A stretch of 64,000 nt of DNA, taken from positions 434,001-498,000 of the forward strand of contig NZ_FWZU01000004.1 of assembly GCF_900177375.1 (NCBI RefSeq), given 5' to 3'. Numbering within the stretch: the stretch's first letter is position 1; each line of letters starts with the position of its first letter. The position numbers were made by a program, and so were the translations under genes. The notes under the pieces are model-generated. The model worked only from the letters and a program-made list of their open reading frames with translations. It was not told the origin of the DNA and did not search any database. Source of the DNA: Desulfovibrio gilichinskyi. Its GTDB lineage: Bacteria; Desulfobacterota; Desulfovibrionia; Desulfovibrionales; Desulfovibrionaceae. This document shows, piece after piece, positions 8,880 through 61,149 of this stretch.

Positions 8880-10772
8880 TTATCGCACTACGAGAATCGG
8901 TATCTTTACCAAATGGCGCACCGGATCAACGGTTTCGCCCCAGAGAAGATCGCCAAGCAGCCGGTGTCCATGTGCTCCCATGATCAGCATATCCACCCCG
9001 TGAGACTTTACAAATGTGCTTAGTGCTTTGGCCGGTTCCCCGTAAGTCAGGGCTATTTCCACGGCCATACCTGCGGCGCGCAGTTCCTCTGCAATTTCGT
9101 TCATGTACTGCTCATCTTCGCGTGAATGTTCGTCATAGGCCTCGTGAGTGTATATTCTGGCCGGAGCTGAATCTACTACGTGGATAAGTGTGAGCAGAGC
9201 TTTTTCGGACTTGGCCAGGGTCATGGCATGGCTGACAATAACCGGGTCGCTGTCGTCGTGTCCCAGAGCTGCTGCGATATGGCGCACGTGGCGTGTCTCA
9301 ATTTTTTCTACAACTGCGGCACCTCCGACCGGTTTCCCGGTACGCCATGGTCTTTCCCCGCGAATCCACGGTAGAACTGTAATATAAACGAGAAAAATAG
9401 TGAGCAGTATTGCAAGTCCGCAGGCTGAAACAGAGAAAAGTTTAGGTAGATCGCCCGAAACCCATTCTGTGAGCTGATCGAAGACCAGTTTACCATTAAG
9501 TACGATGATGATGGCTGATGTTCCCCATGCCAGAATCTTGATCCACCATGCATTGGCGAAGGAGCCCATTTTTAGTTTATCACTAGTAAAATGAACCAGC
9601 GGTATTATGGCGAATGGCAATTGCAGACTGAGCACCACCTGACTGAGGATAAGTAGCTGATAGGTTCCCTTATCTCCCGAAATCCAGATAACCGCCACTG
9701 CGGGCAACAGTGCAACAGAGCGGGTAAGCAATCGACGCAGGTACGGGCGCAGCCTGATATGGACGAAACCTTCCATGACTATCTGTCCTGCCAGAGTGCC
9801 CGTCAGGGTCGAGCTTTGTCCGGCTGCAAGCAGAGCCAGCCCGAAAGCGACAGGGGCGACTTTGCTGCCGAGTAATTGGTCGAGCATTTGGTGGGCTTGC
9901 TGGATTTCTGTGACCACGATCCCGTTACGATAGAACACGGCCGCAGCTAGTATAAGAATGGCCGCATTGACGAAGAATGCCGCGTTGAGGGCAATTGCCG
10001 AGTCGAACAGATTATAGCGGCAGGCTCTGGCTTTGGAGTCAACGTCACGCGCTACGTGGCGTGTCTGTACCAGCGCCGAGTGAAGGTATAAGTTGTGCGG
10101 CATTACTGTGGCGCCGATGATGCCTAGAATAATGTATACTGATCCGACGGGCAAAGTCGGTGTCAGCCCTGTGAGGGCGGCCCCCCAGTCCGGTTTGGCT
10201 AGAAATAAATTGACGATGAACCCACCTGCAATAACCATGATGAGCGACAGGATGAACGCTTCCATCTTGCGCATGCCCAGCCTCTGGATCGCCAGAAGTA
10301 AGAAGGTATCGAACAGAGTTACCAGCGCGCCCCATAACAAAGGGAGGCCGAAAAGTAAGTTGAGGCCGATGATGGTTCCCAGAATTTCCGCAAGGTCGCA
10401 GGCCGCAATAGCTATTTCGCAAAGGAGCCAGAGAGCTTTAACTGTTAACTTAGAGTATTCTGAGCGGCAGGCTTGAGCTAGATCCTTGCCTGTGACTATG
10501 CCGAGGCGTGCGGATAAAGTCTGGAGTAGTATTGCCATCAAATTCGACATGAGGATTACCCAGATGAGCGCGTACCCGAAGCGGGAGCCGCCTTCAAGAT
10601 CGGTGGCCCAGTTACCTGGGTCCATATACCCCACGCTGACAAGATAGGCCGGCCCGGCAAAGGCGAACACACGCTTCAGCCAAGAAGGATGGTTGGTCTC
10701 GACGCTGCTATTGACTTCTTCCAGTGATTTGCCGGTGTGGGAATGGGCTATATCGGTGTTGTCTATATCCAT
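8880..10772 (-). CDS. mntH: Nramp-family metal transporter fused to a UspA domain
   Basis: Residues ~30-440 form the Nramp divalent-metal transporter core with eleven or so membrane helices. They carry the diagnostic metal-site motifs MDPGNWATD in helix 1 and MPHNLYLHS in helix 6, so proton-coupled Mn2+/Fe2+ uptake is expected. Residues ~490-630 are a cytoplasmic universal stress protein domain with the nucleotide-binding pattern G-2x-G-9x-G (GAHGHRLLGDLLWGE), where the usual Ser/Thr after the last Gly is Glu. Typical MntH proteins end near 410-450 residues, so this one is extended. It stands alone between the kinases and an AT-rich region; no MntR- or Fur-like gene is adjacent. The symbol reflects family, not tested substrate. 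Confidence 0.85.
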   Translation of the reverse strand: MDIDNTDIAHSHTGKSLEEVNSSVETNHPSWLKRVFAFAGPAYLVSVGYMDPGNWATDLEGGSRFGYALIWVILMSNLMAILLQTLSARLGIVTGKDLAQACRSEYSKLTVKALWLLCEIAIAACDLAEILGTIIGLNLLFGLPLLWGALVTLFDTFLLLAIQRLGMRKMEAFILSLIMVIAGGFIVNLFLAKPDWGAALTGLTPTLPVGSVYIILGIIGATVMPHNLYLHSALVQTRHVARDVDSKARACRYNLFDSAIALNAAFFVNAAILILAAAVFYRNGIVVTEIQQAHQMLDQLLGSKVAPVAFGLALLAAGQSSTLTGTLAGQIVMEGFVHIRLRPYLRRLLTRSVALLPAVAVIWISGDKGTYQLLILSQVVLSLQLPFAIIPLVHFTSDKLKMGSFANAWWIKILAWGTSAIIIVLNGKLVFDQLTEWVSGDLPKLFSVSACGLAILLTIFLVYITVLPWIRGERPWRTGKPVGGAAVVEKIETRHVRHIAAALGHDDSDPVIVSHAMTLAKSEKALLTLIHVVDSAPARIYTHEAYDEHSREDEQYMNEIAEELRAAGMAVEIALTYGEPAKALSTFVKSHGVDMLIMGAHGHRLLGDLLWGETVDPVRHLVKIPILVVR

Positions 10773-40447: not shown

Positions 40448-41422
40448 TTAACCACCGACTGAAACATTCGGACAGTGCGGAAGTACAAGATCTCTTAAAG
40501 CATAAACATGATCGCGGTCCGGAGGCATTACTCCGTGGAGGACATATTCGCGGTCCAGTTGTTCCCATTTGGGTTCGCCAAGACGGTGGTAAGGGAGGAT
40601 GTCGAGACCTTCCACAGCATCTCCAAGTGCACCGACAAATTTAGCTACCGCTTCAATGTTTTCTGCTGAATCATTACAGCCCGGAATGAGCGGAATTCTT
40701 ATGCGCAGTTTTTTGCCCATTTCTGCGGCCATTTTGATGTTGCTTAAAATCTGCTCATTTGGTGCTCCGGTGAGCTCTTTATGTTTAGCTGAATCAATAT
40801 GTTTGATGTCGGTCAGTACCAGATCTGTATATTTCATAACTTCCGCAAAGGTTTCTTGCGGGCACAGGCAACAGGATTCAATTGCTGTATGCAGGGATCT
40901 TTTTTTGGCTTCCTGCAATGCTTTGATCAAAAAATCAGATTGCAATGTGGGTTCTCCGCCGGAAAATGTCACGCCGCCTTTGGATGTATTATAAAAAGGG
41001 CGATCGCGTTCAACTTCTTCCATCACTTCGTCAACGGTCATGTAGCGGCCCACAATTGTCATTGATCCTGCATAACATTTTTCAACACATTCGCCGCAAT
41101 AAGTGCATCTATCGCGGTCAATTTCAACTTTGAAATTTTCTTTAATGCTAATAGCCTGCTCAGGGCAAAGCGTTGCACATTTTACGCAGCTTATGCAGTG
41201 GTGAGGTATGCGCATAATTTCCGGCTTACTGCTCATGGATTCAGGATTTTGGCACCATTTGCATTTCAAGGGGCATCCTTTCAAAAAGACCAGAGTGCGA
41301 ATGCCTCCGCCGTCATGGACAGCAAAACGCTGTATATCAAAGACCAGTCCCGTGAGCGGTCCTTTGTCTTTATCCTTTAAACTGAATTTATGCTGCCGTT
41401 CCTTCCATCTCATCATAGTCAC
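40448..41422 (-). CDS. Glycyl radical enzyme activase (radical SAM)
   Basis: 324 residues. The N-terminal radical SAM motif GCPLKCKWCQNPE (CxxxCxxC) is followed by a ferredoxin-like insert with two cysteine clusters (CISCVKCATLC and CTYCGECVEKC), then GGVTFSGGEPTLQ and the C-terminal half of the SAM barrel. It makes the glycyl radical on the dehydratase-like enzyme encoded immediately upstream. The first codon is GTG at 41422 (ATG codons follow at 41416 and 41413); no strong ribosome binding site is seen, which fits the low amount of activase needed. A hairpin separates it from the enzyme gene. Confidence 0.9.
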   Translation of the reverse strand: MTMMRWKERQHKFSLKDKDKGPLTGLVFDIQRFAVHDGGGIRTLVFLKGCPLKCKWCQNPESMSSKPEIMRIPHHCISCVKCATLCPEQAISIKENFKVEIDRDRCTYCGECVEKCYAGSMTIVGRYMTVDEVMEEVERDRPFYNTSKGGVTFSGGEPTLQSDFLIKALQEAKKRSLHTAIESCCLCPQETFAEVMKYTDLVLTDIKHIDSAKHKELTGAPNEQILSNIKMAAEMGKKLRIRIPLIPGCNDSAENIEAVAKFVGALGDAVEGLDILPYHRLGEPKWEQLDREYVLHGVMPPDRDHVYALRDLVLPHCPNVSVGG

Positions 41423-41477
41423 CCGCTTATTTATGTGATGCCGGCCTTTGGCGGCTAAAGGTGTAAGCCCTGAATAA

Positions 41478-41503
41478 GGCCCCCGGCATAATTGCCGGGG
41501 GCC
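41478..41503 (-). repeat. Intercistronic GC-rich hairpin between glycyl radical enzyme and activase
   Basis: GGCCCCCGGCA-N4-TGCCGGGGGCC, an 11-bp stem in an otherwise AT-rich region, without a T tail on the minus strand. It is well placed to stabilise the enzyme mRNA and lower activase output. Confidence 0.75.
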
Positions 41504-41512
41504 GCATAATCA

Positions 41513-43903
41513 CTAGAAGTTCTGTTCAGTACGGGCGAGAATGTCATCCTGCAGTGATTTGTCCAGTGCGGTAAAGAATGCACTGTATCCTGCAACGCGG
41601 ACAACTAATCCCTTATGTTTTTCAGGGTTAGCCTGAGCGTCGAGCAGGGTTTCACGACTGATAACGTTGTACTGCACATGGAATCCGCCGTTTTGGAAGT
41701 AAGCTTCGGTAACGGCTTTGAGATTCTCCAGTCCTTTTTCTCCTTCGATTGCGGAAGGATGGAATTTCTGGTTCAGCAGTGTTCCGTTGGATGCAATCTC
41801 ATGATCCAGTTTTGCAACGGATAGAACAGATGCGGTAGGACCGCAGGAGTCGTAACCGGATATAGGTGATACACCGTCAGCAAGTGGTGTCCATGCTTTG
41901 CGTCCGTCAGGAGTTGCCGTTACAACGGAACCTAAAGGCACGTTTGCAGAAGCAGGGTAGAGGCCCGGCTGGAATTTACCACCGCGAGGGTTGGTGTATT
42001 TGTTGACTTCTTTGCAGTAGATAAGAGCTGCTTCCTTAGCAATTTCATCTGCGTAATCGTCATCATTGCCGTACTTAGGAGCACGGTTGACGAGCATCTG
42101 GCGCAGGTCTTCCTGTCCTTCGAAGTTGTTGGCGAGTGCTTCCTGAAGCTGTTCAAGAGTCAGAGCTTTATCGTCAAAAACGATCTTTTTGATAGCAGTT
42201 AAGGAGTCACCTGCGTTGGCAACACCTACGCCCTGCGGCCCTGTGAAGTTGTAATGAGCTCCGCCTTCCTGCAAGGAAATTCCTTTGGAAATGCAGTCGT
42301 CAACGAGAGATGACAGGAATGGAAGCGGACAATGTTTACCGTGGGTCATATCAACAGCGTTGTCAGCAGCAGCCATAAGTTTTACGAAATGAGCTGTCTG
42401 CTGTGTGTATGAAGCCATGAGATCTTCAAAAGATTTGAAGGTTTTCATGCTTCCTGATTTAGGACCAAGTTGTTTTCCGGTGCGTTGGTCAACACCGTCA
42501 TTGAGGCAAAGCTCAATAATTTTTGCCATGTTGTAGAAAGCTGCGTCATGCCAGCCTTCGGTTTTGCCGCCGACCTGAGGTTCTACGCAGCCGATGATAC
42601 CGTAATCACGAGCATCTTCACGTTCAAGACCGCGAGCCAGAAGAGCCGGTACAATAACGCGGTCATTGTAGTATGCGGGATACCCCATTCCCATACGGCT
42701 GAGTTCAGCGGCTTTCTTGTATAACGGATCAGGTGTTCCTTCGTGAATGCGGATGGATAGTGAAGGCGCATAAAGCTTAGTATTGGCGCTCGCTTGCAGG
42801 ATAAGATAGGACATCGTGTTTGTGGCATCAGAGCCGTCACGTTTCTGTCCGCCAACTATCAGGTTCATAAACATGGGGTAGCCTGCAAAAGCCATAGAGG
42901 AGTTTTCGTCACGAACTTTGTTAAGTTCAGAGAACTTGACCCACAGCATGTCCAGCAGTTCCTGTGCCTTTTCAACAGAAATGCTGTCAGCCTGAAGGAA
43001 GGGATTCATGTATTGGTCAAAGCGCATCGGTGAAATGGAGTGACCGTTTGATTCAATCTGGATAACCAGATGGATGAACCAGAATGCCTGCATTGCTTCC
43101 TGAAAGGATTCAGCAGGCTGGGCGGGAACTTTGCGGCAGATGCGGGCTATTTCAATAAGTTCGGCTCTGCGCTCTGAATCATCACATGCGGATGCCATTT
43201 TTTCTGCCAGCACTGCAAAACGTTCTGCAAAAGCGATAACAGCTTTGTTGGCTGTGACAACTGATTTCAGAAAATGCATTTTATTAAGCTGTGAAGGATC
43301 TGAGAAATCAATTTCAGCCAGTTTAGCTTCAGCCTGAGCAATAACAGCATTGAGGCCGAGTTTTAGTACTTTATCATAGTTGGCGGAAATGTGGCCTACG
43401 CCGTTGTAGAAGTAGTTGCCGACGGTGAACACAACTTCATTGTGTGCTTCAAGAGATTCTTCAGGCATGAGCTTGGAAGCAATTTCATTAACAGTTTTGC
43501 CGTCCCAGTATGCGAAAGCTTTGCGCAGTTTGGCTTTAACATCTTCAGAAATAAGGAAAACGTCGGAAGTCCTTTTTGCGAGGCGGTCCAGTTCCTCTTC
43601 AACCCATTTGCAGGAAAATTCCGGAAAAATCGGAGCAGAGCGAGGCATGGAGCACTGGTTACCGACCAAAATTTCATCGTCCTGAATGAAAATTGACATG
43701 CCGGAGAGAATCTTTTCCAGAGCCTTTGCGCGGCGAGTCGGCATGGGCAATCCTTCTGTTTCCTTATAGGATTCAGTGATCAGCTCGGCACGTTCTGCGC
43801 AGATTGAAGGTGTTGTGTTTAAAAAACGATCAAGGATTTTTTCTACACGCTCTGAAGTACCCACAGTCTTGGGAATTTCTACATTAGGTTTATTCTTAGT
43901 CAT
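41513..43903 (-). CDS. Glycyl radical diol dehydratase-like enzyme
   Basis: 796 residues with the pyruvate formate-lyase-like barrel, thiyl cysteine C439 in GCVEPQ (with E441) and glycyl radical G772 in RVAGYSAFF. Side chains that hold glycerol in B12-independent glycerol dehydratase (His164, His281, Ser282, Asp447) have counterparts: H171 in NGVGHIS, H288-S289 in NGHSIS and D453 in GWHDAAF. The sequence GKTEGWHDAAF and YTNPRGGKFQPGLYP also match that group. It therefore probably dehydrates glycerol, 1,2-propanediol or a related diol (sulfonated diols are possible); it is not the choline lyase. Start ATG at 43903 after GGAG. Followed by its activase, preceded by a GlcG/HbpS-like gene. Confidence 0.85.
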   Translation of the reverse strand: MTKNKPNVEIPKTVGTSERVEKILDRFLNTTPSICAERAELITESYKETEGLPMPTRRAKALEKILSGMSIFIQDDEILVGNQCSMPRSAPIFPEFSCKWVEEELDRLAKRTSDVFLISEDVKAKLRKAFAYWDGKTVNEIASKLMPEESLEAHNEVVFTVGNYFYNGVGHISANYDKVLKLGLNAVIAQAEAKLAEIDFSDPSQLNKMHFLKSVVTANKAVIAFAERFAVLAEKMASACDDSERRAELIEIARICRKVPAQPAESFQEAMQAFWFIHLVIQIESNGHSISPMRFDQYMNPFLQADSISVEKAQELLDMLWVKFSELNKVRDENSSMAFAGYPMFMNLIVGGQKRDGSDATNTMSYLILQASANTKLYAPSLSIRIHEGTPDPLYKKAAELSRMGMGYPAYYNDRVIVPALLARGLEREDARDYGIIGCVEPQVGGKTEGWHDAAFYNMAKIIELCLNDGVDQRTGKQLGPKSGSMKTFKSFEDLMASYTQQTAHFVKLMAAADNAVDMTHGKHCPLPFLSSLVDDCISKGISLQEGGAHYNFTGPQGVGVANAGDSLTAIKKIVFDDKALTLEQLQEALANNFEGQEDLRQMLVNRAPKYGNDDDYADEIAKEAALIYCKEVNKYTNPRGGKFQPGLYPASANVPLGSVVTATPDGRKAWTPLADGVSPISGYDSCGPTASVLSVAKLDHEIASNGTLLNQKFHPSAIEGEKGLENLKAVTEAYFQNGGFHVQYNVISRETLLDAQANPEKHKGLVVRVAGYSAFFTALDKSLQDDILARTEQNF

Positions 43904-51240: not shown

Positions 51241-51858
51241 ATGAGATATTACGGCGAAGAGGCTTTGGGCCTTATTGAAACTCTTGGAATGGTTCCGGCA
51301 ATAAACGGCGCAGACCAAATGCTGAAAACAGCAGATGTAGAGCTTATTTCATACGAAAACGTAGGGTCTACCCTTGTTGCCGTTATGGTTAAAGGAGATG
51401 TCGCTGCCGTTAAAGCTGCGGTTGAAGCCGGAGCTGTTGCAGCAGCTGAAATAGGCAAACTGACCGCACAGAACGTTATGGCTCGTCCAATCCGCGGAGT
51501 CGGCGAAATCGTTTCCGTGCATGCTGTTGAAAGCAGTGATGATGCAGATGCGCAAGCTGGCAGACCAAAAGCAATGGGGCTCATTGAAACCTTCGGTATT
51601 GTCTATGTTCTTGAAGCTGCCGACGCCATGATGAAGGCTGCTGATGTAGAACTCATCGGATATGAAAACGTAGCTTCAGGATACATTTCAGTTTTGGTTC
51701 AAGGTGATGTTGCAGCATGTAAATCCGCTGTAGAAGCCGGAGTCAAAGCAGTCCATGAAATGGGCGTTGAAGTGTACAGCTCTGTTGTTATCCCGACCCC
51801 TCATCCTGATTTAGTAAAAATTACTGAAAGATACGCACTCAGCACTTTGCTTGCTTAA
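51241..51858 (+). CDS. Tandem-domain microcompartment shell protein
   Basis: 205 residues made of two canonical BMC domains (1-~95 and ~113-200) joined by an acidic linker (ESSDDADAQAG). Each has the GLIETLGMVPAINGADQML / GLIETFGIVYVLEAADAMM start and the loop before VKGD/VQGD. It should form a trimeric pseudohexagonal tile of the shell facet. SD GGAG precedes the ATG. First gene of the cut operon, 71 bp before the aldehyde dehydrogenase homologue. Confidence 0.9.
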   Translation: MRYYGEEALGLIETLGMVPAINGADQMLKTADVELISYENVGSTLVAVMVKGDVAAVKAAVEAGAVAAAEIGKLTAQNVMARPIRGVGEIVSVHAVESSDDADAQAGRPKAMGLIETFGIVYVLEAADAMMKAADVELIGYENVASGYISVLVQGDVAACKSAVEAGVKAVHEMGVEVYSSVVIPTPHPDLVKITERYALSTLLA

Positions 51859-51928: not shown

Positions 51929-53431
51929 ATGATTGTTGACAGTGATTTACTTTCCATTCAGCAAGCCAGAATTCTTGCGGAGAATGGGCATGAAGCGCAA
52001 AAGAAGCTGGCCTCTTTCCCACAGGAAAAGCTGGATGAAATTGTCGAGAGCATGGCTGACGCTGTTGAAAAACATGCTAAAGACCTTGCCGTCATGTCTC
52101 AGGAAGAAACTGACATCGGTAAATGGCAGGATAAATATGTCAAAAATCATTTTGTCTGTGAGCAAGTCCGTACCCAGCTAAGATCCATGCGTTGTGTGGG
52201 GGTTATTAATAAAGATCCGCAAAAGCACATTATGGATATAGGCGTTCCTGTCGGAGTCATTGCAGCCCTCTGTCCTGTAACAAGTCCTGTTTCCACAACT
52301 GTCTGCAACGCCCTGATTGCGATTAAATCAGGAAACGGAATAATCTTTTCCCCGCATCCCGGAGCCGTAAAAAGCATCAGCATGGTTTTAGACATCATGA
52401 TTGAGGCTGCGCAGGCTCACGGTCTGCCGGAGGGATGTCTCTCCTATCTTGGAACCGTTACCAAAAGCGGAACCAAAGAACTCATGAACCATAGACTCAC
52501 TTCTCTGGTTCTTGTCACCGGAGTTCCGGGAATGCTTCAAACCGCTCATTGCTCAGGAAAGCCCGTTATTTATGGTGGAACAGGTAATGGTCCTGCTTTT
52601 ATTGAGCGTTCTGCAAACATAAGTCAGGCCGTCAAAGACATCATTTCCAGTAAAACATTTGATAACGGCATTGCTCCGTCAGCGGAACAGTCCATTGTTG
52701 TTGACTCCTGCATCGCAAGCGACGTCAAACGTGTTTTATATGATAACGGTGCTTATTTCATGTCGGATGAAGAGTCGCAAACTCTTGCCGAACTTTTCTT
52801 CCGCCCTGACGGTCAACGTAAAAAGGGAATGATCGGTCAGTCCGCCGCGGTTATCGCCCGCAGAGCCGGATTTAATGTACCGGAAAATGTATCTGTGCTT
52901 GTCGCAGAACGTAAGTACGTTTCCGAGACAGACCCTTATTACAAAGAATTTCTTTCCCCCGTTCTTGCTCTTTATGTGGAGGATGACTGGATGCATGCCT
53001 GTGAAAAGTGCATCGAGCTGCTGCTCCACGAGAGAAACGCCCACACCTTGGTAATTCACTCCGGTGACGAAGAAGTAATCCGCCAGTTTGCTTTGAAAAA
53101 GCCGGTTGGAAGATTGCTGGTCAATACTCCGGGTACTTTCGGTGGAATGGGCTTAACCACAAATCTCTTCCCCTCAATGACTCTCGGTAGCGGTTCCGCC
53201 GGACGCGGCATCACGTCTGACAATGTGTCGCCGCTTAATCTTATCTACACCCGAAGGGTTGGATACGGAGTCAGGCACATGAACGGACCGGAAGACGTAA
53301 TTAATAATAGTGAAAATCATTGCCCGGCAGCGGTTGAGCACAAAGAAAGCAATGATTCTAATCTGGAGCAGGCATTACAGCTGCTCCTGAAAAAGGCGAT
53401 TGAAGCAATAAATGATCCTGCGGATCGTTAA
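51929..53431 (+). CDS. cutB: Acylating aldehyde dehydrogenase homologue lacking the catalytic cysteine (CutB-like)
   Basis: 500 residues of the EutE/PduP family (GVPVGVIAALCPVTSPVSTT; SGNGIIFSPHP; GPAFIERSAN; SKTFDNG). Where the active-site motif GTICASEQ occurs in the downstream paralogue (C247), this protein reads GIAPSAEQ, so the nucleophilic cysteine is replaced by P250. It cannot use the normal thioester mechanism. The C-terminus ends in an amphipathic helix (NLEQALQLLLKKAIEAI) typical of encapsulation peptides. It is therefore probably an encapsulated pseudoenzyme, perhaps a partner or scaffold for CutF or CutC. The symbol follows operon position. Confidence 0.85.
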   Translation: MIVDSDLLSIQQARILAENGHEAQKKLASFPQEKLDEIVESMADAVEKHAKDLAVMSQEETDIGKWQDKYVKNHFVCEQVRTQLRSMRCVGVINKDPQKHIMDIGVPVGVIAALCPVTSPVSTTVCNALIAIKSGNGIIFSPHPGAVKSISMVLDIMIEAAQAHGLPEGCLSYLGTVTKSGTKELMNHRLTSLVLVTGVPGMLQTAHCSGKPVIYGGTGNGPAFIERSANISQAVKDIISSKTFDNGIAPSAEQSIVVDSCIASDVKRVLYDNGAYFMSDEESQTLAELFFRPDGQRKKGMIGQSAAVIARRAGFNVPENVSVLVAERKYVSETDPYYKEFLSPVLALYVEDDWMHACEKCIELLLHERNAHTLVIHSGDEEVIRQFALKKPVGRLLVNTPGTFGGMGLTTNLFPSMTLGSGSAGRGITSDNVSPLNLIYTRRVGYGVRHMNGPEDVINNSENHCPAAVEHKESNDSNLEQALQLLLKKAIEAINDPADR

Positions 53432-53462: not shown

Positions 53463-56021
53463 ATGGATCTTCAAAGTTTTTCAAATAAGTTAGCAGAGGT
53501 TACTAAGAATCTGTCTCCTGAGGAGAGAGCTTCGTTAAAGAAGATTTTTGAGGGCGTATCCGCAGAGATTTTACATAGTAAAGATGCGGACACTCATGCT
53601 GTAGCTCATGGTGTTGCTCATGCTCACGACACTTGCGGTATTCCTGACGGACCCACTGACCGTCATGTCAAACTCAAAGAAAAATTTCTACAGCACGTTC
53701 CTAGCGTAACTGTTCATCGTGCTCGCGCCATCACCAAGATGGCTAAAGAAAATCCCGGAATGCCTAAAGCTCTTTTACGCGGTAAGTGCTTCCGTTACTG
53801 CTGCGAAACAGCTCCTCTGGTTATTCTGGATGGCGAGCTTATCGTCGGTGCTCCTAACGGTGCTCCTCGCGCAGGTGCATTTTCACCTGACATCGCATGG
53901 CGCTGGATGAAAGACGAAATCGACACTATCGGAACACGTCCTCAGGATCCTTTTTATGTTTCTGACGAAGATAAAAAGATCATGTTGGAAGAACTCTTTC
54001 CTTTCTGGGAAAGCAAGTCCGTTGATGAACATTGCGAAGGTCAGTACCGCGAAGCAGGACTCTGGGAACTTTCCGGCGAATCCTTTGTTTCCGACTGCTC
54101 CTACCATGCTGTGAACGGCGGCGGTGACTCCAACCCCGGTTATGACGTAATTCTTATGAAGAAAGGGATGCTGGACATCCAGAGCGAAGCGCGCGCTCAT
54201 CTTGAAGAACTGGATTACGAAAACCCCGATGATATCGATAAAATTTATTTCTATAAATCAGTAATCGAAACAGCTGAAGGCGTAATGATTTACGCTAAAA
54301 GAATGTCCGATTACGCCGCACAGCTTGCAGCTAAAGAAGCTGATCCGAAACGTAAAGCTGAACTTCTCAAGATTTCAGAAGTCAACGCACGTGTTCCTGC
54401 TCATAAGCCTAGCACTTTCTGGGAAGCTATTCAGGCAGTCTGGACCATTGAATCCCTGCTTGTAGTTGAAGAAAACCAAACAGGTATGTCTATCGGACGT
54501 GTTGACCAGTATATGTATCCTTTCTTCAAGGCTGACCTTGAAGCCGGACGTATGACTGAATACGAAGCTTTTGATCTTGCCGGATGTATGCTGATCAAAA
54601 TGTCTGAAATGATGTGGATCACCAGCGAAGGCGGCTCTAAATTCTTCGCAGGATACCAGCCTTTTGTAAATATGTGCGTTGGCGGCGTAACCCGTGAAGG
54701 TCTTGATGCAACTAACGATCTGACTTACCTGCTCATGGACGCAGTTCGTCATGTCCGCATTTATCAGCCTTCCCTTGCAACTCGTGTTCATAACAAATCA
54801 CCTCAGAAATACCTGAAAAAGATTGTTGATGTTATCCGTTCAGGAATGGGTTTCCCTGCTGTTCACTTTGATGATGCCCATATTAAAATGATGCTGGCTA
54901 AAGGCGTAAGCATTGAAGATGCTCGCGACTATTGCCTCATGGGATGCGTTGAACCTCAGAAATCAGGTCGTCTGTATCAGTGGACATCAACCGCATATAC
55001 CCAGTGGCCTATCTGCATTGAGCTTGTTCTCAATCAGGGTGTTCCGCTTTGGTACGGTAAGAAAGTCTGCCCTGATATGGGACCGATCAACTCTTTCGAT
55101 ACTTATGAAAAATTCGAAGCAGCTGTAAAAGAACAAATCAAGTACATTACCAAATGGTCAAGCGTTGCAACTGTTATTTCGCAGCGAGTTCACAGAGATC
55201 AGGCTCCAAAACCTCTCATGTCCCTCATGTATGAAGGTTGTATGGAAAAAGGTAAGGACGTTTCCGCCGGCGGCGCAATGTACAACTTCGGTCCAGGTGT
55301 TGTCTGGTCCGGTCTGGCTACTTACGTTGACTCCATGGCTGCTATTAAGAAGCTTGTATTTGAAGATCATAAGTACACATTGTCCCAGCTTAACGAAGCT
55401 TTGAAAGTCGACTTCGTAGGGTTTGAACAGATTAAGGCTGACTGCCTTGCTGCTCCTAAATACGGTAACGATGATGATTATGTAGATCTTATTGCTGCGG
55501 ATCTGGTTCATTTCACTGAAACTGAACACCGCAAATTCAAGACTCTGTATTCTGTACTGAGCCACGGAACACTTTCTATTTCTAATAACACTCCATTCGG
55601 ACAGCTGCTCGGCGCTTCCGCTAACGGTCGTCGTGCATGGATGCCTCTTTCCGACGGTATCAGTCCGACTCAGGGTGCTGACTACAAAGGACCTACCGCA
55701 ATCATCAAGTCCGTTTCCAAGATGGCAAACGACAGCATGAACATCGGTATGGTTCACAACTTCAAGCTTATGTCCGGCCTGCTCGATACCCCTGAAGGGG
55801 AAACCGGCATCATCACTCTCATGCGCACAGCCTGCATGCTGGGCAATGGTGAAATGCAGTTCAACTATCTTGATAACGATACTCTGCTGGATGCTCAGAA
55901 ACACCCTGAAAATTATCGTGATCTCGTTGTCCGCGTAGCTGGATACAGCGCGTTCTTTGTTGAGCTTTGCAAAGATGTACAGGACGAAATCATCAGCAGA
56001 ACCATGCTGCTTGAACTGTAA
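53463..56021 (+). CDS. cutC: Choline trimethylamine-lyase
   Basis: 852 residues, glycyl radical enzyme. Residues known for the Desulfovibrio alaskensis enzyme are all present with a constant offset of six: Y214, D222 (in [11 protein letters not shown]), thiyl C495 and E497 in GCVEPQ, Y512, and glycyl radical G827 in RVAGYSAFF. This identifies cleavage of choline to trimethylamine and acetaldehyde with high confidence. An N-terminal extension (~1-60) begins with an amphipathic helix ([17 protein letters not shown]) that probably targets it into the shell. SD GGAGG precedes the ATG; the activase gene follows 44 bp later. Confidence 0.97.
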
Positions 56022-56065: not shown

Positions 56066-57007
56066 GTGATCACCGTGATTGAAAGAAAAGCACATATATT
56101 CAACGTACAGAAATACAACATGTACGACGGACCCGGAGTGAGAACTCTGGTGTTCTTTAAAGGGTGTCCTCTTCGTTGTGAGTGGTGCTCAAATCCCGAA
56201 GGACAACTTCGTAAATTCCAAGTTCTATTTAAAAAAGACCTCTGCGTTCATTGTGGTGCATGCGAGCCCGTCTGCCCGGTGGGAATCCATAAATTCTCAC
56301 CGGGGGCTCGCCGCCACGAAATAGATCAGAATATTGAATGTATCGGATGCCGGAAATGTGAACAAGTCTGCCCTCATTCGGCTCTGGCTGTGGTCGGAGA
56401 AGTAAAAACTATATCAGAACTGATGGATATAGTGGAAGAGGATAGACCTTTTTATGAAATGTCAGGCGGCGGCGTCACCTTAGGCGGCGGGGAAGTCCTT
56501 ATGCAGCCTGAAGCCGCGACTAATCTGTTAATGGCCTGCAAACAGAGAAACATTAACACCGCAATGGAAACTTGCGGGTATGCGCGCCTTGAAGTTGTGC
56601 AGAAAGTTGCGGAATTCACGGACCTTTTTCTCTTTGATGTGAAGCATATGAATTCCGAAAGACACCGTGAGATCACAGGCGTTCGCAATGAGATGATCCT
56701 AAGCAATCTGACATGGCTTCTTGATAACAAGTACAACGTAAAAATCAGGATGCCGCTCTTAAAAGGCGTAAATGACGGCGAGCAGGAAATTCTTGATCTG
56801 ATCAAATTGTTGAAACCTTATCAGGATTTTAAAAATTTCAAAGGCGTGGACCTTCTGCCGTATCACAAACTCGGGGTGAACAAGTACAGCCAGCTTGGTT
56901 GGGAGTACCCGATTGAAGGTGACCCGAAGCTTAGCGATGCTGATCTTGAACGCATTGAGAACAGCATTAAAAAATATAATTTTCCGGTTTCAGTGATCAG
57001 GCACTAA
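56066..57007 (+). CDS. cutD: Choline trimethylamine-lyase activating enzyme
   Basis: 313 residues: radical SAM motif GCPLRCEWCSNPEG, ferredoxin-like insert with two clusters (CVHCGACEPVCPVG, CIGCRKCEQVCPHS), GGVTLGGGEVLMQ and the remaining barrel. It generates the glycyl radical on CutC using SAM and reduced ferredoxin/flavodoxin. The start is GTG (56066, or 56075) with no good ribosome binding site, which fits the low amount needed relative to CutC. Confidence 0.95.
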   Translation: MITVIERKAHIFNVQKYNMYDGPGVRTLVFFKGCPLRCEWCSNPEGQLRKFQVLFKKDLCVHCGACEPVCPVGIHKFSPGARRHEIDQNIECIGCRKCEQVCPHSALAVVGEVKTISELMDIVEEDRPFYEMSGGGVTLGGGEVLMQPEAATNLLMACKQRNINTAMETCGYARLEVVQKVAEFTDLFLFDVKHMNSERHREITGVRNEMILSNLTWLLDNKYNVKIRMPLLKGVNDGEQEILDLIKLLKPYQDFKNFKGVDLLPYHKLGVNKYSQLGWEYPIEGDPKLSDADLERIENSIKKYNFPVSVIRH

Positions 57008-57052: not shown

Positions 57053-57655
57053 ATGGCGGCACTAGGATTTATTGAAACAAAGGGACTGCTTGCAGCGGTT
57101 GAAGGCGCAGATGCCATGCTTAAAGCTGCAGATGTACACCTTCTTGAAAAAAATCTCGTGGGTGGCGGACTTGTCTCCATCACTATTGAAGGAGAAGTCT
57201 CCGCAGTAAAGGCATCCGTTGATGCTGCTGTTTCTGCTATAGGCCGTATTTGCGGATCAACACTTGTTTCGCAGCATGTCATTGCCCGTCCTGATGAGGA
57301 GCTTAAGCGGATTATTGCTACAAAGCCGGTTCAGGTTAATGCTCCGGAATTTAAAGAAGAAGCTAAAGTTGAACATGAAGAAGCTCCAGTTGAGGTTTCA
57401 GAACCTGCTGTCGAAATCAAGAAGGATTTAGATAAAGTTGAGAATTTATCTAGTAATATTCTAGATAAAATTTCTGAGCCATCTGTAAAAGCAGAACCTG
57501 TTCGCTATCAAATTTCAGATTTAGAAAAGATGAAAATCGGTAAGCTGCGGCAGATTGCTCGCACCATGAGTGATCTTTCTCTGACCAGAGAAGAGATTAA
57601 ATCTTCCGCGAAGAAAGCACTGATTGAAGCAATTATTAAAGTTACAGGCAGATAA
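57053..57655 (+). CDS. Shell protein with Rho-N-like C-terminal domain
   Basis: 200 residues. Residues 1-90 are a canonical BMC hexamer domain (GFIETKGLLAAVEGADAML; GGGLVSITIEGE). Residues ~90-150 are an acidic linker. Residues 151-200 form three helices: SDLEKMKIGKLRQIART, SLTREEIKSSAKKALIEAI. That pattern resembles the Rho termination factor N-terminal (SAP/HeH-like) domain, which binds nucleic acid, with two basic residues in the last helix region. Such an extension would hang from the shell face and could bind RNA, DNA or protein cargo. SD GAGGAG. Confidence 0.8.
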   Translation: MAALGFIETKGLLAAVEGADAMLKAADVHLLEKNLVGGGLVSITIEGEVSAVKASVDAAVSAIGRICGSTLVSQHVIARPDEELKRIIATKPVQVNAPEFKEEAKVEHEEAPVEVSEPAVEIKKDLDKVENLSSNILDKISEPSVKAEPVRYQISDLEKMKIGKLRQIARTMSDLSLTREEIKSSAKKALIEAIIKVTGR

Positions 57656-57667
57656 GGAGTATTCCAA

Positions 57668-59107
57668 ATGGTAGACAAAGATTTATTGTCCGTTCAGGAA
57701 GCGCGTTCACTTGTTCGTGCCGCTAAAAAGGCACAGGCAGAACTTGCTTTACTCGATCAAGAACACATCGATTGCATTGTTAAGGCAATTTCCGAAGCAG
57801 CCAGATCTCAGGCTGAGTCTCTTGCAGCTCTTGCTGTTGAAGAAACAGGGTTCGGGAAAGTTCAGGACAAAACGGCTAAGAATATTCTTGCCAGTGAGCA
57901 GCTTTTCGAAGCTATCAAAGACATGAAAACCATTGGTGTTCTTAGCGAAGACAAAGTTAAAAAAATCACTGAAATTGCTGTTCCAGTAGGTGTTATTGCA
58001 GGGATTGTTCCTTCAACCAACCCTACATCTACAACTATTTATAAATCCATGATTTCCATCAAGTCAGGAAATGCGATTGTTTTCACTCCTCATCCCAGTG
58101 CTAAAAAATGCATCGGTAAGACTGTAGAAATAATCCGCGCCGCTTTGTCCAAATGCGGAGTCAGCGAAGATCTCGTCAGCGTTATGAGTATTCCTACCAT
58201 TCAGGGTAGCGGTGAACTTATGAAAGTTGCAGATCTGATTCTTGCTACTGGCGGTCCCGGCATGGTTAAAGCTGCTTACAGCTCCGGTACTCCTGCTTTA
58301 GGTGTAGGTGCAGGTAACGTCCCAGCTTACATCGAAAGAAGTGCCAACGTTGAAGATGCTGTCAGAAAGATCTTTATGAGTAAGACTTTTGACAACGGAA
58401 CTATCTGCGCATCCGAACAGTCTATTGTTACTGAATCAGTTATTGCTGATAAAGTCAGAGCTGCTGTTATTGCTGAGGGTGGTTACTTCCTTGAAGGCGA
58501 GTGTCTTGAAAAGGTTAAACGAGTCATGGAAAGAGGAAACGGTTCCATGAATCCTGATATCGTCGGACGTGACGCTGCTTACATCGCTAAAATTGCAGGC
58601 ATAACAATTCCTCACGGAGTTACTGTTCTGCTTTCAGATGAAAAAGGAATCGGACCTAAATATCCTTTCTCCAAGGAAAAACTCACCGGTCTCCTCGGTT
58701 TCTACGTAGTTGAAGACTGGAAAGAAGCTTGCGAGACATGTCACGCGCTTTTGGAAAATGGCGGTATCGGTCATTCTCTCTCCATTCATTCACAAAATGA
58801 AGAAGTTATCCGTGAGTTCGGTATCAAGAAGCCTGTCTCCAGACTGCTTGTAAACACTCCGTCCACACAGGGTGCTGTAGGTCTTTCAACCTCGCTCTTC
58901 CCTTCATTCACACTTGGTTGCGGAACAGTCGGCGGAAGTGCCACTTCTGATAACGTAACCCCTTTGAATCTGATGAACGTCAGAAGAATAGCTTACGATC
59001 TTGGAACTACAACCAGCCATCACGCTCATGAAGCGGCTGGATCGTCCACCCTCGACGTCAGTGCAATCACCGCAATGATCGTCGAACAGCTTAAACAGAT
59101 GGTTTAA
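57668..59107 (+). CDS. cutF: CoA-acylating acetaldehyde dehydrogenase
   Basis: 479 residues with all EutE/PduP elements: GVPV-type GVIAGIVPSTNPTSTT, GNVPAYIERSAN and catalytic C247 in GTICASEQ. It oxidises acetaldehyde from CutC to acetyl-CoA with NAD+. The C-terminal segment LDVSAITAMIVEQLKQMV is amphipathic and probably an encapsulation peptide. SD AGGAG just after the preceding stop. About half the sequence is shared with the CutB-like paralogue upstream, which lacks the cysteine. Confidence 0.93.
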   Translation: MVDKDLLSVQEARSLVRAAKKAQAELALLDQEHIDCIVKAISEAARSQAESLAALAVEETGFGKVQDKTAKNILASEQLFEAIKDMKTIGVLSEDKVKKITEIAVPVGVIAGIVPSTNPTSTTIYKSMISIKSGNAIVFTPHPSAKKCIGKTVEIIRAALSKCGVSEDLVSVMSIPTIQGSGELMKVADLILATGGPGMVKAAYSSGTPALGVGAGNVPAYIERSANVEDAVRKIFMSKTFDNGTICASEQSIVTESVIADKVRAAVIAEGGYFLEGECLEKVKRVMERGNGSMNPDIVGRDAAYIAKIAGITIPHGVTVLLSDEKGIGPKYPFSKEKLTGLLGFYVVEDWKEACETCHALLENGGIGHSLSIHSQNEEVIREFGIKKPVSRLLVNTPSTQGAVGLSTSLFPSFTLGCGTVGGSATSDNVTPLNLMNVRRIAYDLGTTTSHHAHEAAGSSTLDVSAITAMIVEQLKQMV

Positions 59108-59173: not shown

Positions 59174-59455
59174 ATGTCATCTAACGCACTTGGAATGATT
59201 GAAACTAAAGGACTCGTCGGCGCAATTGAAGCAGCTGATGCAATGGTTAAAGCAGCAAACGTAACTCTGGTCGGTAAGACTCAGGTTGGCGGCGGTCTGG
59301 TTACTGTAATGGTTCGCGGAGATGTTGGAGCTGTTAAAGCTGCAACTGACGCCGGTGCTGTTGCTGCTAAAAACGTAGGTGAACTTATCAGTGTTCACGT
59401 TATTCCTCGCCCTCATGATGAAGTTGAAATCATCCTTCCTAAAGCTGGAGAATAA
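59174..59455 (+). CDS. Hexameric microcompartment shell protein
   Basis: 93 residues, a minimal BMC domain like EutM/PduA ([21 protein letters not shown]; pore loop [22 protein letters not shown]). Strong SD AAAGGAG. It should be the major facet tile. A near-identical paralogue lies at 62974. A hairpin follows at 59521. Confidence 0.95.
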
Positions 59456-59546: not shown

Positions 59547-59644
59547 ACTGCCCGCTGAGTAAGGTTTGCGAAGAATAGAACAGTACCGTGCAGAAGCAAG
59601 ATACTTGAAAGAAACATCATTCAATATTTTTAAGTGAAGTGAAT

Positions 59645-60325
59645 ATGAACGAGAAAGCTATTAACGACATTTTGGAAGAGGTCGTCAGGAACGTCATTGA
59701 CCAGCTTGGTGGCAAGACACCGAATGCTTCTGCGTGTGAGAAAACAAGTGATGTTATTCCGGTTGAGCTGTCTGGAAGACATGTTCATTTAAGTGAAGAT
59801 GACGCCAAAGCTCTATTCGGCGGTCCTTTGACTCTCACTAGGGAGCTTTCCCAGCCGGGACAGTTTCTGTGTAAAGAGCGTGTTCGTCTTATCGGACCTA
59901 AAGGCGTTATGGATAACGTGGCTGTGCTTGGACCATCACGTTCCCATTCACAGGTGGAAATTTCTAAAACCGATGCCCGCATTCTCGGGATCAATGCCCC
60001 CGTGCGCCAGTCAGGTGACGTTGCCGGTACGCCCGGTATCATTCTGGCTTCCGAGATGAATATCGTCGGACTTGAAGAAGGCGTAATCGTCGCTGCCCGT
60101 CACATTCATATGTCTCCTGAAGATGCCAAAAAAATGTGTGTCTCCGACAATGAAAAGGTCAGTGTCCGCCTTGAAAGCGAACGTCCTGTTATTCTTGAAG
60201 ATGTTGTAGTGCGCGTTAATGATGCATTCAATCTGAGCATGCATATTGATCCTGATGAAGGAAACAGTGCAGGCTGGGACAAAAGTGTTTCCGGTAAAAT
60301 CCTTTCTAAGGGATGGCGGAGCTAA
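59645..60325 (+). CDS. pduL: PduL-type phosphate acyltransferase
   Basis: About 226 residues: N-terminal encapsulation helix (NEKAINDILEEVVRNVIDQL), then two PduL beta-barrel domains with the metal-binding histidine motifs SGRHVHLS and AARHIHMSPEDA and the late SMHIDPDEGNSA. Converts acetyl-CoA plus phosphate to acetyl-phosphate and recycles CoA inside the shell. Start is ATG 59645 or GTG 59639; the ribosome binding site is weak. Confidence 0.93.
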   Translation: MNEKAINDILEEVVRNVIDQLGGKTPNASACEKTSDVIPVELSGRHVHLSEDDAKALFGGPLTLTRELSQPGQFLCKERVRLIGPKGVMDNVAVLGPSRSHSQVEISKTDARILGINAPVRQSGDVAGTPGIILASEMNIVGLEEGVIVAARHIHMSPEDAKKMCVSDNEKVSVRLESERPVILEDVVVRVNDAFNLSMHIDPDEGNSAGWDKSVSGKILSKGWRS

Positions 60326-60327
60326 CA

Positions 60328-61149
60328 ATGGACTTTTCAGTCATTGATCAAAAAATTTGTGCTCTTGAAGACTGCATTGAGAACACCGTTCCGGTAAGTG
60401 CCGATGAGAAACTCTTTGTGGGGGTTGACCTTGGTACAGCCTACATTGTGGTGGTTGTTCTGAACAGTAAGAAAGAGCCTGTGGCCTGTGCCATGGAATT
60501 TGCTCAAGTGATCAAAGACGGTCTGGTTGTTGATTATACGGGAGCTACCCGTATTGTCCGTAAGCTTGTGAAACAGATTGAAGAGCGTCTCGGACGCACT
60601 TTGACCCACGCCGCTATCGCTGTCCCGCCCGGAACCGGGGAGAAAGATTGCGGAACTCACCGCTATGTTGTGGAAGGTGCGGGGCTCGAAGTTACCACGA
60701 TTCTTGATGAGCCGACTGCTGCTAATGCTGTTCTCGGCATTGTGAACGGGGTTATTGTTGATATCGGCGGCGGTACTACCGGACTTTCTGTTCTTGAAGA
60801 CAGCAAAGTAACTTATGTTGCCGACGAGGCTACCGGCGGAACTCATCTGACGCTGGTTCTTGCCGGAAATTATAAGATCAGTTTTGAGGAAGCGGAAGAA
60901 TTGAAGAAGCAGAAAGACCGTCAGGCAGAAACGCTTGCTGTTGTTTTTCCGGTAATTCAAAAAATGGCTTCCATCGTCAGCAATCATATCGCAGGTCGCG
61001 AAATTTCAGCGATTTATCTGGTCGGCGGAACCTGCTGCCTTAAAAATATGGAGCAGGTGATGGAAAAGTCTATCGGCAAACCTGTTTTCAAGCCGGCGAA
61101 TCCTTTTTTGGTAACCCCGCTGGGCATAGCCCTGAACTGCGAAGCCTAG
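60328..61149 (+). CDS. eutJ: EutJ-like chaperone
   Basis: About 273 residues with the actin/Hsp70 ATPase fold (FVGVDLGTAYIVVVV phosphate-1; IVDIGGGTTGLSVL phosphate-2; YLVGGTCCLKNMEQVM adenosine loop) but no Hsp70 substrate-binding domain, as in EutJ. Thought to assist cargo or shell assembly. I start at 60328 with GGAG 8 nt upstream; an ATG at 60313 would overlap pduL. Confidence 0.9.
   Translation: MDFSVIDQKICALEDCIENTVPVSADEKLFVGVDLGTAYIVVVVLNSKKEPVACAMEFAQVIKDGLVVDYTGATRIVRKLVKQIEERLGRTLTHAAIAVPPGTGEKDCGTHRYVVEGAGLEVTTILDEPTAANAVLGIVNGVIVDIGGGTTGLSVLEDSKVTYVADEATGGTHLTLVLAGNYKISFEEAEELKKQKDRQAETLAVVFPVIQKMASIVSNHIAGREISAIYLVGGTCCLKNMEQVMEKSIGKPVFKPANPFLVTPLGIALNCEA

Follow-up and report, generated by a model that had tools for sequence, protein, structure and literature searches.

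The window, that is, the whole stretch of DNA that was analysed, comprises 64,000 nucleotides of Desulfovibrio gilichinskyi and contains an operon which, as read from its genes, is a choline-utilisation microcompartment locus. The genes of the operon and the features within cutB are the following:

51241-51858 (+): two-domain shell gene of the BMC-T type, directly 5' of cutB (two stretches of Pfam BMC).
51929-53431 (+): cutB, a pseudoenzyme of 500 aa with the acylating aldehyde dehydrogenase (ALDH) fold (open reading frame, family profiles and predicted structure).
52283-52285 (+): codon of Ser119, which replaces the oxyanion-hole Asn (alignment; residue role from the available portion of PMC4762007).
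52676-52678 (+): codon ccg of Pro250, which replaces the catalytic Cys (codon read directly; comparison of 81 sequences).
53357-53413 (+): predicted C-terminal helix, residues 477-495, a putative encapsulation peptide.
53463-56021 (+): cutC, choline TMA-lyase with a short N-terminal extension, GRM1 type (TIGR04394, 1665.8 bits).
56066-57007 (+): cutD, the CutC activase (TIGR04395, 577.8 bits).
57053-57655 (+): BMC-H shell protein of 200 aa, whose BMC domain (residues 3-80) is followed by a long C-terminal extension.
57668-59107 (+): cutF, acetylating acetaldehyde dehydrogenase with Cys247 (TIGR02518, 661.9 bits, cut-off 620.1).
59174-59455 (+): single-domain shell protein, called by eye from the sequence.
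59639-60325 (+): PduL-type phosphotransacylase (PF06130).
60313-61149 (+): EutJ-family protein (NF011660, above cut-off).

A short-extension CutC accompanied by shell genes is the composition of a GRM1 cut locus. The N-terminal domain of about 350 aa found in the CutC of GRM2 loci is absent from the protein of the window, which has 852 aa and whose TIGR04394 match starts at residue 64. Organelles of this kind are often used by gut bacteria producing trimethylamine from choline. In all 15 neighbourhoods where CutF was seen, its gene is preceded by a shell ORF whose frame measures 181-352 aa. Elsewhere in the window (40448-43903, minus strand) lies a second glycyl radical enzyme accompanied by an activase of its own, with scores above the PFL2-3 and activase subfamily cut-offs and below all the equivalog cut-offs shown. 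The names CutB and CutF are used as in a supplementary-figure legend of PMC6620236, the part of that paper considered here, where both stand among the CoA-acylating ALDHs.

The first-pass annotation had described cutB as an ALDH gene that lost its catalytic cysteine, and the ORF, which is open over 500 aa, its frame and the motif were found as described: read from the DNA, CutB has FDNGIAPSAEQ where CutF has FDNGTICASEQ, with Pro250 in the place of Cys247. CutB reaches 540.3 bits against TIGR02518, under the curated cut-off of 620.1, so that by score it falls outside this family, and Pro250 stands where the enzymes of the family have their catalytic Cys. The claim that cofactor-binding and fold motifs were kept held for the fold, as seen in the AlphaFold2 model and its PDB matches, and failed in part for the active site: besides Ser119, the protein has VTGV where the conserved ATGG is expected and Ser421 where the TLGCG motif has a conserved Cys. 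A CxxC is present in the same helix of both ALDHs of the operon (ACEKC and ACETC); in CutB it comprises residues 358-361 (window 53000-53011) and is invariant in the 22 CutBs of one alignment.

The AlphaFold2 model of CutB, built on 26 sequences, has a mean pLDDT of 86.5 and a pTM of 0.83, and in this model the ALDH fold is intact. Its closest PDB structures are acylating-type ALDHs, with chains of 3k9d (a probable ALDH) on top; for chain A the TMq was 0.87, the TMt 0.96 and the rmsd 1.8. CutB thus shares fold, family origin and C-terminal helical tail with the EutE/CutF-type enzymes (TIGR02518; PDB 3k9d and 5j78), from which it differs in lacking the catalytic Cys and, mostly, the oxyanion Asn. 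The C-terminal helix had also been announced as amphipathic: it is indeed predicted at residues 477-495, preceded by a low-confidence stretch (459-478) taken as a disordered linker, but the amphipathicity is only moderate, with a hydrophobic moment of 0.45 that is reached by 4% of shuffles.

The cysteine is absent from all the orthologues found. Loci from the genus, the class and the named genomes (there the 80 top-ranked among at least 579 stretches confirmed) were pooled with later loci, and at the cysteine position the 81 CutB-type sequences have Pro (49), Ser (27), Ala (3) or Thr (2) and never Cys, whereas the related acylating-ALDH rows have Cys in 99 of 99 (97 loci, with two genomes doubled: L210 with L083 and L198 with L099). 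CutB was present in 10 of the 17 genomes of the genus sample, each time together with CutF. In the class of the host it was matched at E <= 1e-130 in 50 of 297 genomes, where the residue is Pro in 41, Ser in 6, Ala in 3 and Cys in none. The scan of named genomes, in which at least 579 stretches were confirmed and the best 80 retained, gave further CutBs, none with Cys among these; the bearers include Desulfopila, several Clostridium, Eubacterium multiforme, Neobacillus, Desulfosporosinus hippei and Vagococcus.

Several rows were left out of the count: the partial L141 and L126, in whose stead L180 and L179 were taken; L071 (G214), identical to the CutB of Candidatus Bilophila faecipullorum (L082); the repeats L173, L175-L178, L182, L183, L185, L186 and L189-L192; and the fragments under 300 aa, L197 (a 162-aa CutB end) and L205 (a 208-aa piece). 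Some partial rows stay in the count, for example L195 with 340 aa. Fifteen late-added rows were called CutB by the missing Cys itself, so that for those 15 the count is circular; all of them score better as CutB than as CutF, and the 10 present in the tree lie on the CutB side. A higher score as CutB than as CutF was tried as classifier and proved imperfect, since the GRM2-type Cys ALDH L207 scores 484 against 476, and classification was therefore made by tree.

A local or strain-level mutation, or a sequencing error, would have left close orthologues with the cysteine, and the first-pass annotation had named such orthologues as the case against its reading. None was found among the 81 CutB-type sequences and nothing was found in favour of this explanation, which is therefore rejected and can be given practically no credence. 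Since none of the orthologues found has kept the nucleophile, the alignment indicates that CutB cannot use the thiohemiacetal mechanism.

Trees were made from 160 rows and then from 84 identity-thinned rows (50 of the 81 CutB and 34 of the 99 others), with the Cys column excluded; both trees are unrooted, and the 84-row one was computed with LG+G4 rather than a mixture model. In both, the CutBs and the Cys enzymes occupy the two sides of one branch, with a support of 100/100 in the 84-row tree, and because the two sets are separated by this fully supported branch a single change between Cys and non-Cys suffices. The CutB of the window falls on the Cys-less side, in a tree that comprises no published GRM1 sequences by name. 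L193 and L202 were flagged as long branches that meet in the 84-row tree. The CutBs nearest to the Cys enzymes are those of the Desulfosporosinus type (L137, L187 and L188, own grouping support 93/46), whose motifs are GI[IV]SASEQ, PSTNP and GHT, so that Ser replaces the Cys while the motifs of the Asn and the His are intact; L187 and L188 additionally retain the Cys of TLGCG. Since these three have lost the Cys and kept the Asn and His motifs, it seems from the sequences that loss of the Cys came first and that other erosion of the active site followed.

This erosion is considerable. Residue roles were taken from the available part of PMC4762007 and matched by alignment. The oxyanion Asn, which all 99 Cys-enzyme rows have, is gone in 71 of the 81 CutBs, which have Ser (64), Gly (6) or Leu (1) at this site and Asn in only 10. 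The base His is His in 67 and Gln in 13 of 80 CutBs. Retained residues are Glu340 (78/80), Lys69 (79/81) and the phosphate-binding His143 (77/81). Because these three are kept, CutB could conceivably bind nucleotides or have some residual activity. A new or residual activity independent of Cys, for example a Ser-based esterase or thioesterase in the Ser lineages, could draw on the Ser found in 27 of the 81 sequences and on the retained Glu and mostly retained His; it is nevertheless very improbable, as the Pro of 49 and the Ala of 3 of the 81 cannot be nucleophiles and His has become Gln in 13 of 80. Moreover, in the Clostridium phytofermentans enzyme either C269A or H387A abolishes activity without unfolding the protein, according to the portion of PMC4762007 used here.

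Among 96 positions conserved at 95% or more in the Cys enzymes, 15 are altered in most CutBs; six catalytic loops hold 9 of these among their 30 conserved positions, and the other 6 lie among the 66 positions outside the loops (Fisher p 0.014, with the loops picked post hoc). The conserved positions of the SPHP and GxGN motifs, on the contrary, are altered in 0 of 8. This difference, together with the nearly constant Glu340 and Lys69, could be expected of a ligand-binding regulator or cofactor buffer, that is, a protein which binds NAD, CoA or acetyl-CoA without turnover or regulates CutF. Such a role is considered unlikely: the catalytic loops in the comparison were selected after the data had been seen, the buffering of a cofactor in stoichiometric amounts by a single core protein accounts poorly for conservation of this degree, and the continuing erosion of catalytic residues in part of the lineages weakens any chemical or buffering role. 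The two most diverged CutBs (L193:2559-4034 and L202:4427-5869, with 312 and 220 bits to the protein of the window) have wrecked catalytic motifs, yet occupy the slot between the shell genes and cutC, as is expected if only shape matters.

Across seven within-genus pairs dN/dS was 0.046-0.110 for CutB and 0.053-0.102 for CutF, and on these values cutB is under purifying selection. The term retained pseudoenzyme, introduced by the first-pass annotation, is thus well supported by the absence of Cys in all 81 sequences, a loss that fits a single event, purifying selection and a gene order constant in 50 of 50 loci.

This order is shell ORF, cutB and cutC on one strand, as identified in the 50 class loci with flanks of about 1-1.5 kb. 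Sixteen wider neighbourhoods all showed shell gene, cutB, cutC and cutD, with CutF further on in 15; the exception is L162, with no CutF within the stretch examined. Full-length CutC (above 1550 bits) was identified in 54 of the 297 class genomes, and 50 of these 54 have CutB. The remaining four (G266, G272, G042 and G213; loci L169-L172) contain cutC and cutD with no shell gene or ALDH in 17-20 kb, and their CutCs begin without the short N-terminal extension. Three more class genomes lie above the CutC family cut-off: G215, where the contig ends within CutC on the side of cutB and CutB was not found, and G140 and G253, whose CutC relatives score lower.

In the Clostridia sample CutC was found at E <= 1e-290 in 7 of 341 genomes (including G300), and all seven loci comprise shell genes, cutB and cutC, with no Cys in CutB. 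In the sample of the order of Proteus cibi, CutC was found at the same threshold in 6 of 295 genomes. Three of these combine a long CutC (1136-1153 aa frames) with shell genes and a single Cys ALDH, and show no CutB over 20 kb. The other three have a short CutC: in L205 it is accompanied by a CutB with Pro, in L209 neither a shell gene nor CutB occurs over 20 kb, and in L208 shell genes are present and the 20 kb contain no ALDH at all, CutB included. The N-terminal tail of the L208 CutC differs.

Thirty-one named genomes form a biased set, chosen via ALDH hits. Six of them (G308-G313) have a long CutC with no neighbouring CutB (in G313 this covers all its ALDHs but one), and in the other 25 genomes the 26 short-CutC loci have CutB upstream of cutC in all except L194 of Paenibacillus sp. 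NAIST15-1. In L194 an apparent iron-type alcohol dehydrogenase (9556-10747), named by eye, was observed in the cutB slot. The distance between cutB and cutC is 1.1-1.5 kb in G298, G320 and G321, where the two genes do not abut, and in G325 CutB is split across two contigs. In total, no CutB was seen beside the long CutC of any of eight genomes (frames of 1135-1155 aa; G308 belongs to two sets), and no CutB locus with a long CutC occurs in the samples examined. As far as sequences can tell, CutB goes with loci having both a shell and a short-extension CutC; it is not strictly required there, because L194 and L208 (the latter over 20 kb) have shell genes and a short CutC without it.

With cutC following cutB in 50 of 50 class loci, and with the extension and CutB jointly absent from the four shell-less class loci, CutB might be a dedicated assembly partner of CutC or of its N-terminal extension only, with no part for CutF. 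The usual pairing partner of an ALDH-fold protein is, however, another ALDH-fold protein, and L194 has the extension and no CutB. CutC and CutD are moreover enough for choline cleavage in E. coli, as given in the consulted portion of PMC6325248, so that CutB is not needed for the lyase, and a partnership with CutC only is quite unlikely. A role as activity partner of CutC was also considered and is unlikely, because CutCD is active alone and the shell-less cutCD loci (L169-L172 and L209) lack CutB.

CutB is the catalytically defunct second AldDH already published for GRM1 (type I cut) loci: it belongs to the same locus type and stands as second ALDH beside an intact Cys247 CutF. In the available text of Axen et al. 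2014 (PMC4207490) every GRM1 locus with two ALDHs is described as having Cys changed to Ser or Pro in one of them, to which Pro250 conforms and to which Ala and Thr are added here, and a scaffold or regulator role is suggested for the defunct enzyme. Sutter et al. 2021 marked the same ALDH as putatively inactive, in the portion of PMC8217296 that was accessible. The missing Cys is thus confirmed and was already known, in print since 2014. The present analysis adds the erosion of Asn and His, the dN/dS values, the order in which the residues were probably lost and the association of CutB with the shell and with the architecture of CutC. Neither the order of erosion nor the pattern of co-occurrence with shell, extension and GRM2 was found in the parts of the GRM1 literature examined. 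No experiment on CutB was found in the open-access papers searched.

Two other systems offer a comparison. The human pseudoenzyme ALDH16A1 resembles CutB, by its description in the available part of PMC10650815, in having the ALDH fold without catalytic residues, although its setting is unrelated. The N-terminal domain of GRM2 CutC is likewise a dead copy of a core enzyme linked to the packaging of CutF, and according to the accessible portions of PMC6325248 and PMC6971018 it was needed in recombinant GRM2 work to bring CutF in. Unlike CutB, it has the glycyl-radical-enzyme fold and is fused to CutC, and the analogy of roles is inferred.

CutB is probably, with moderate confidence, an ancient pseudoenzyme of the EutE/CutF family that became a dedicated structural core component of GRM1 choline microcompartments. 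It would be packaged in the organelle via its C-terminal helix and would act structurally, as ALDH-type oligomers formed with itself or with CutF. These oligomers may space, cross-link or recruit CutF beside CutC and the shell, and by analogy CutB would do in GRM1 the job of the dead CutC N-terminal domain in GRM2. A broader proposal, tentative and possible rather than probable, is that GRM1 and GRM2 cores are each built on a dead duplicate of a core enzyme, as alternative adaptors between CutF and the radical enzyme; it is supported by the absence of CutB from the eight long-CutC loci and of long CutC from the CutB loci.

That an inactive enzyme has been kept next to the signature enzyme suggests an architectural part, and the pattern of co-occurrence predicts that CutB matters for packaging and organelle assembly and not for choline cleavage.
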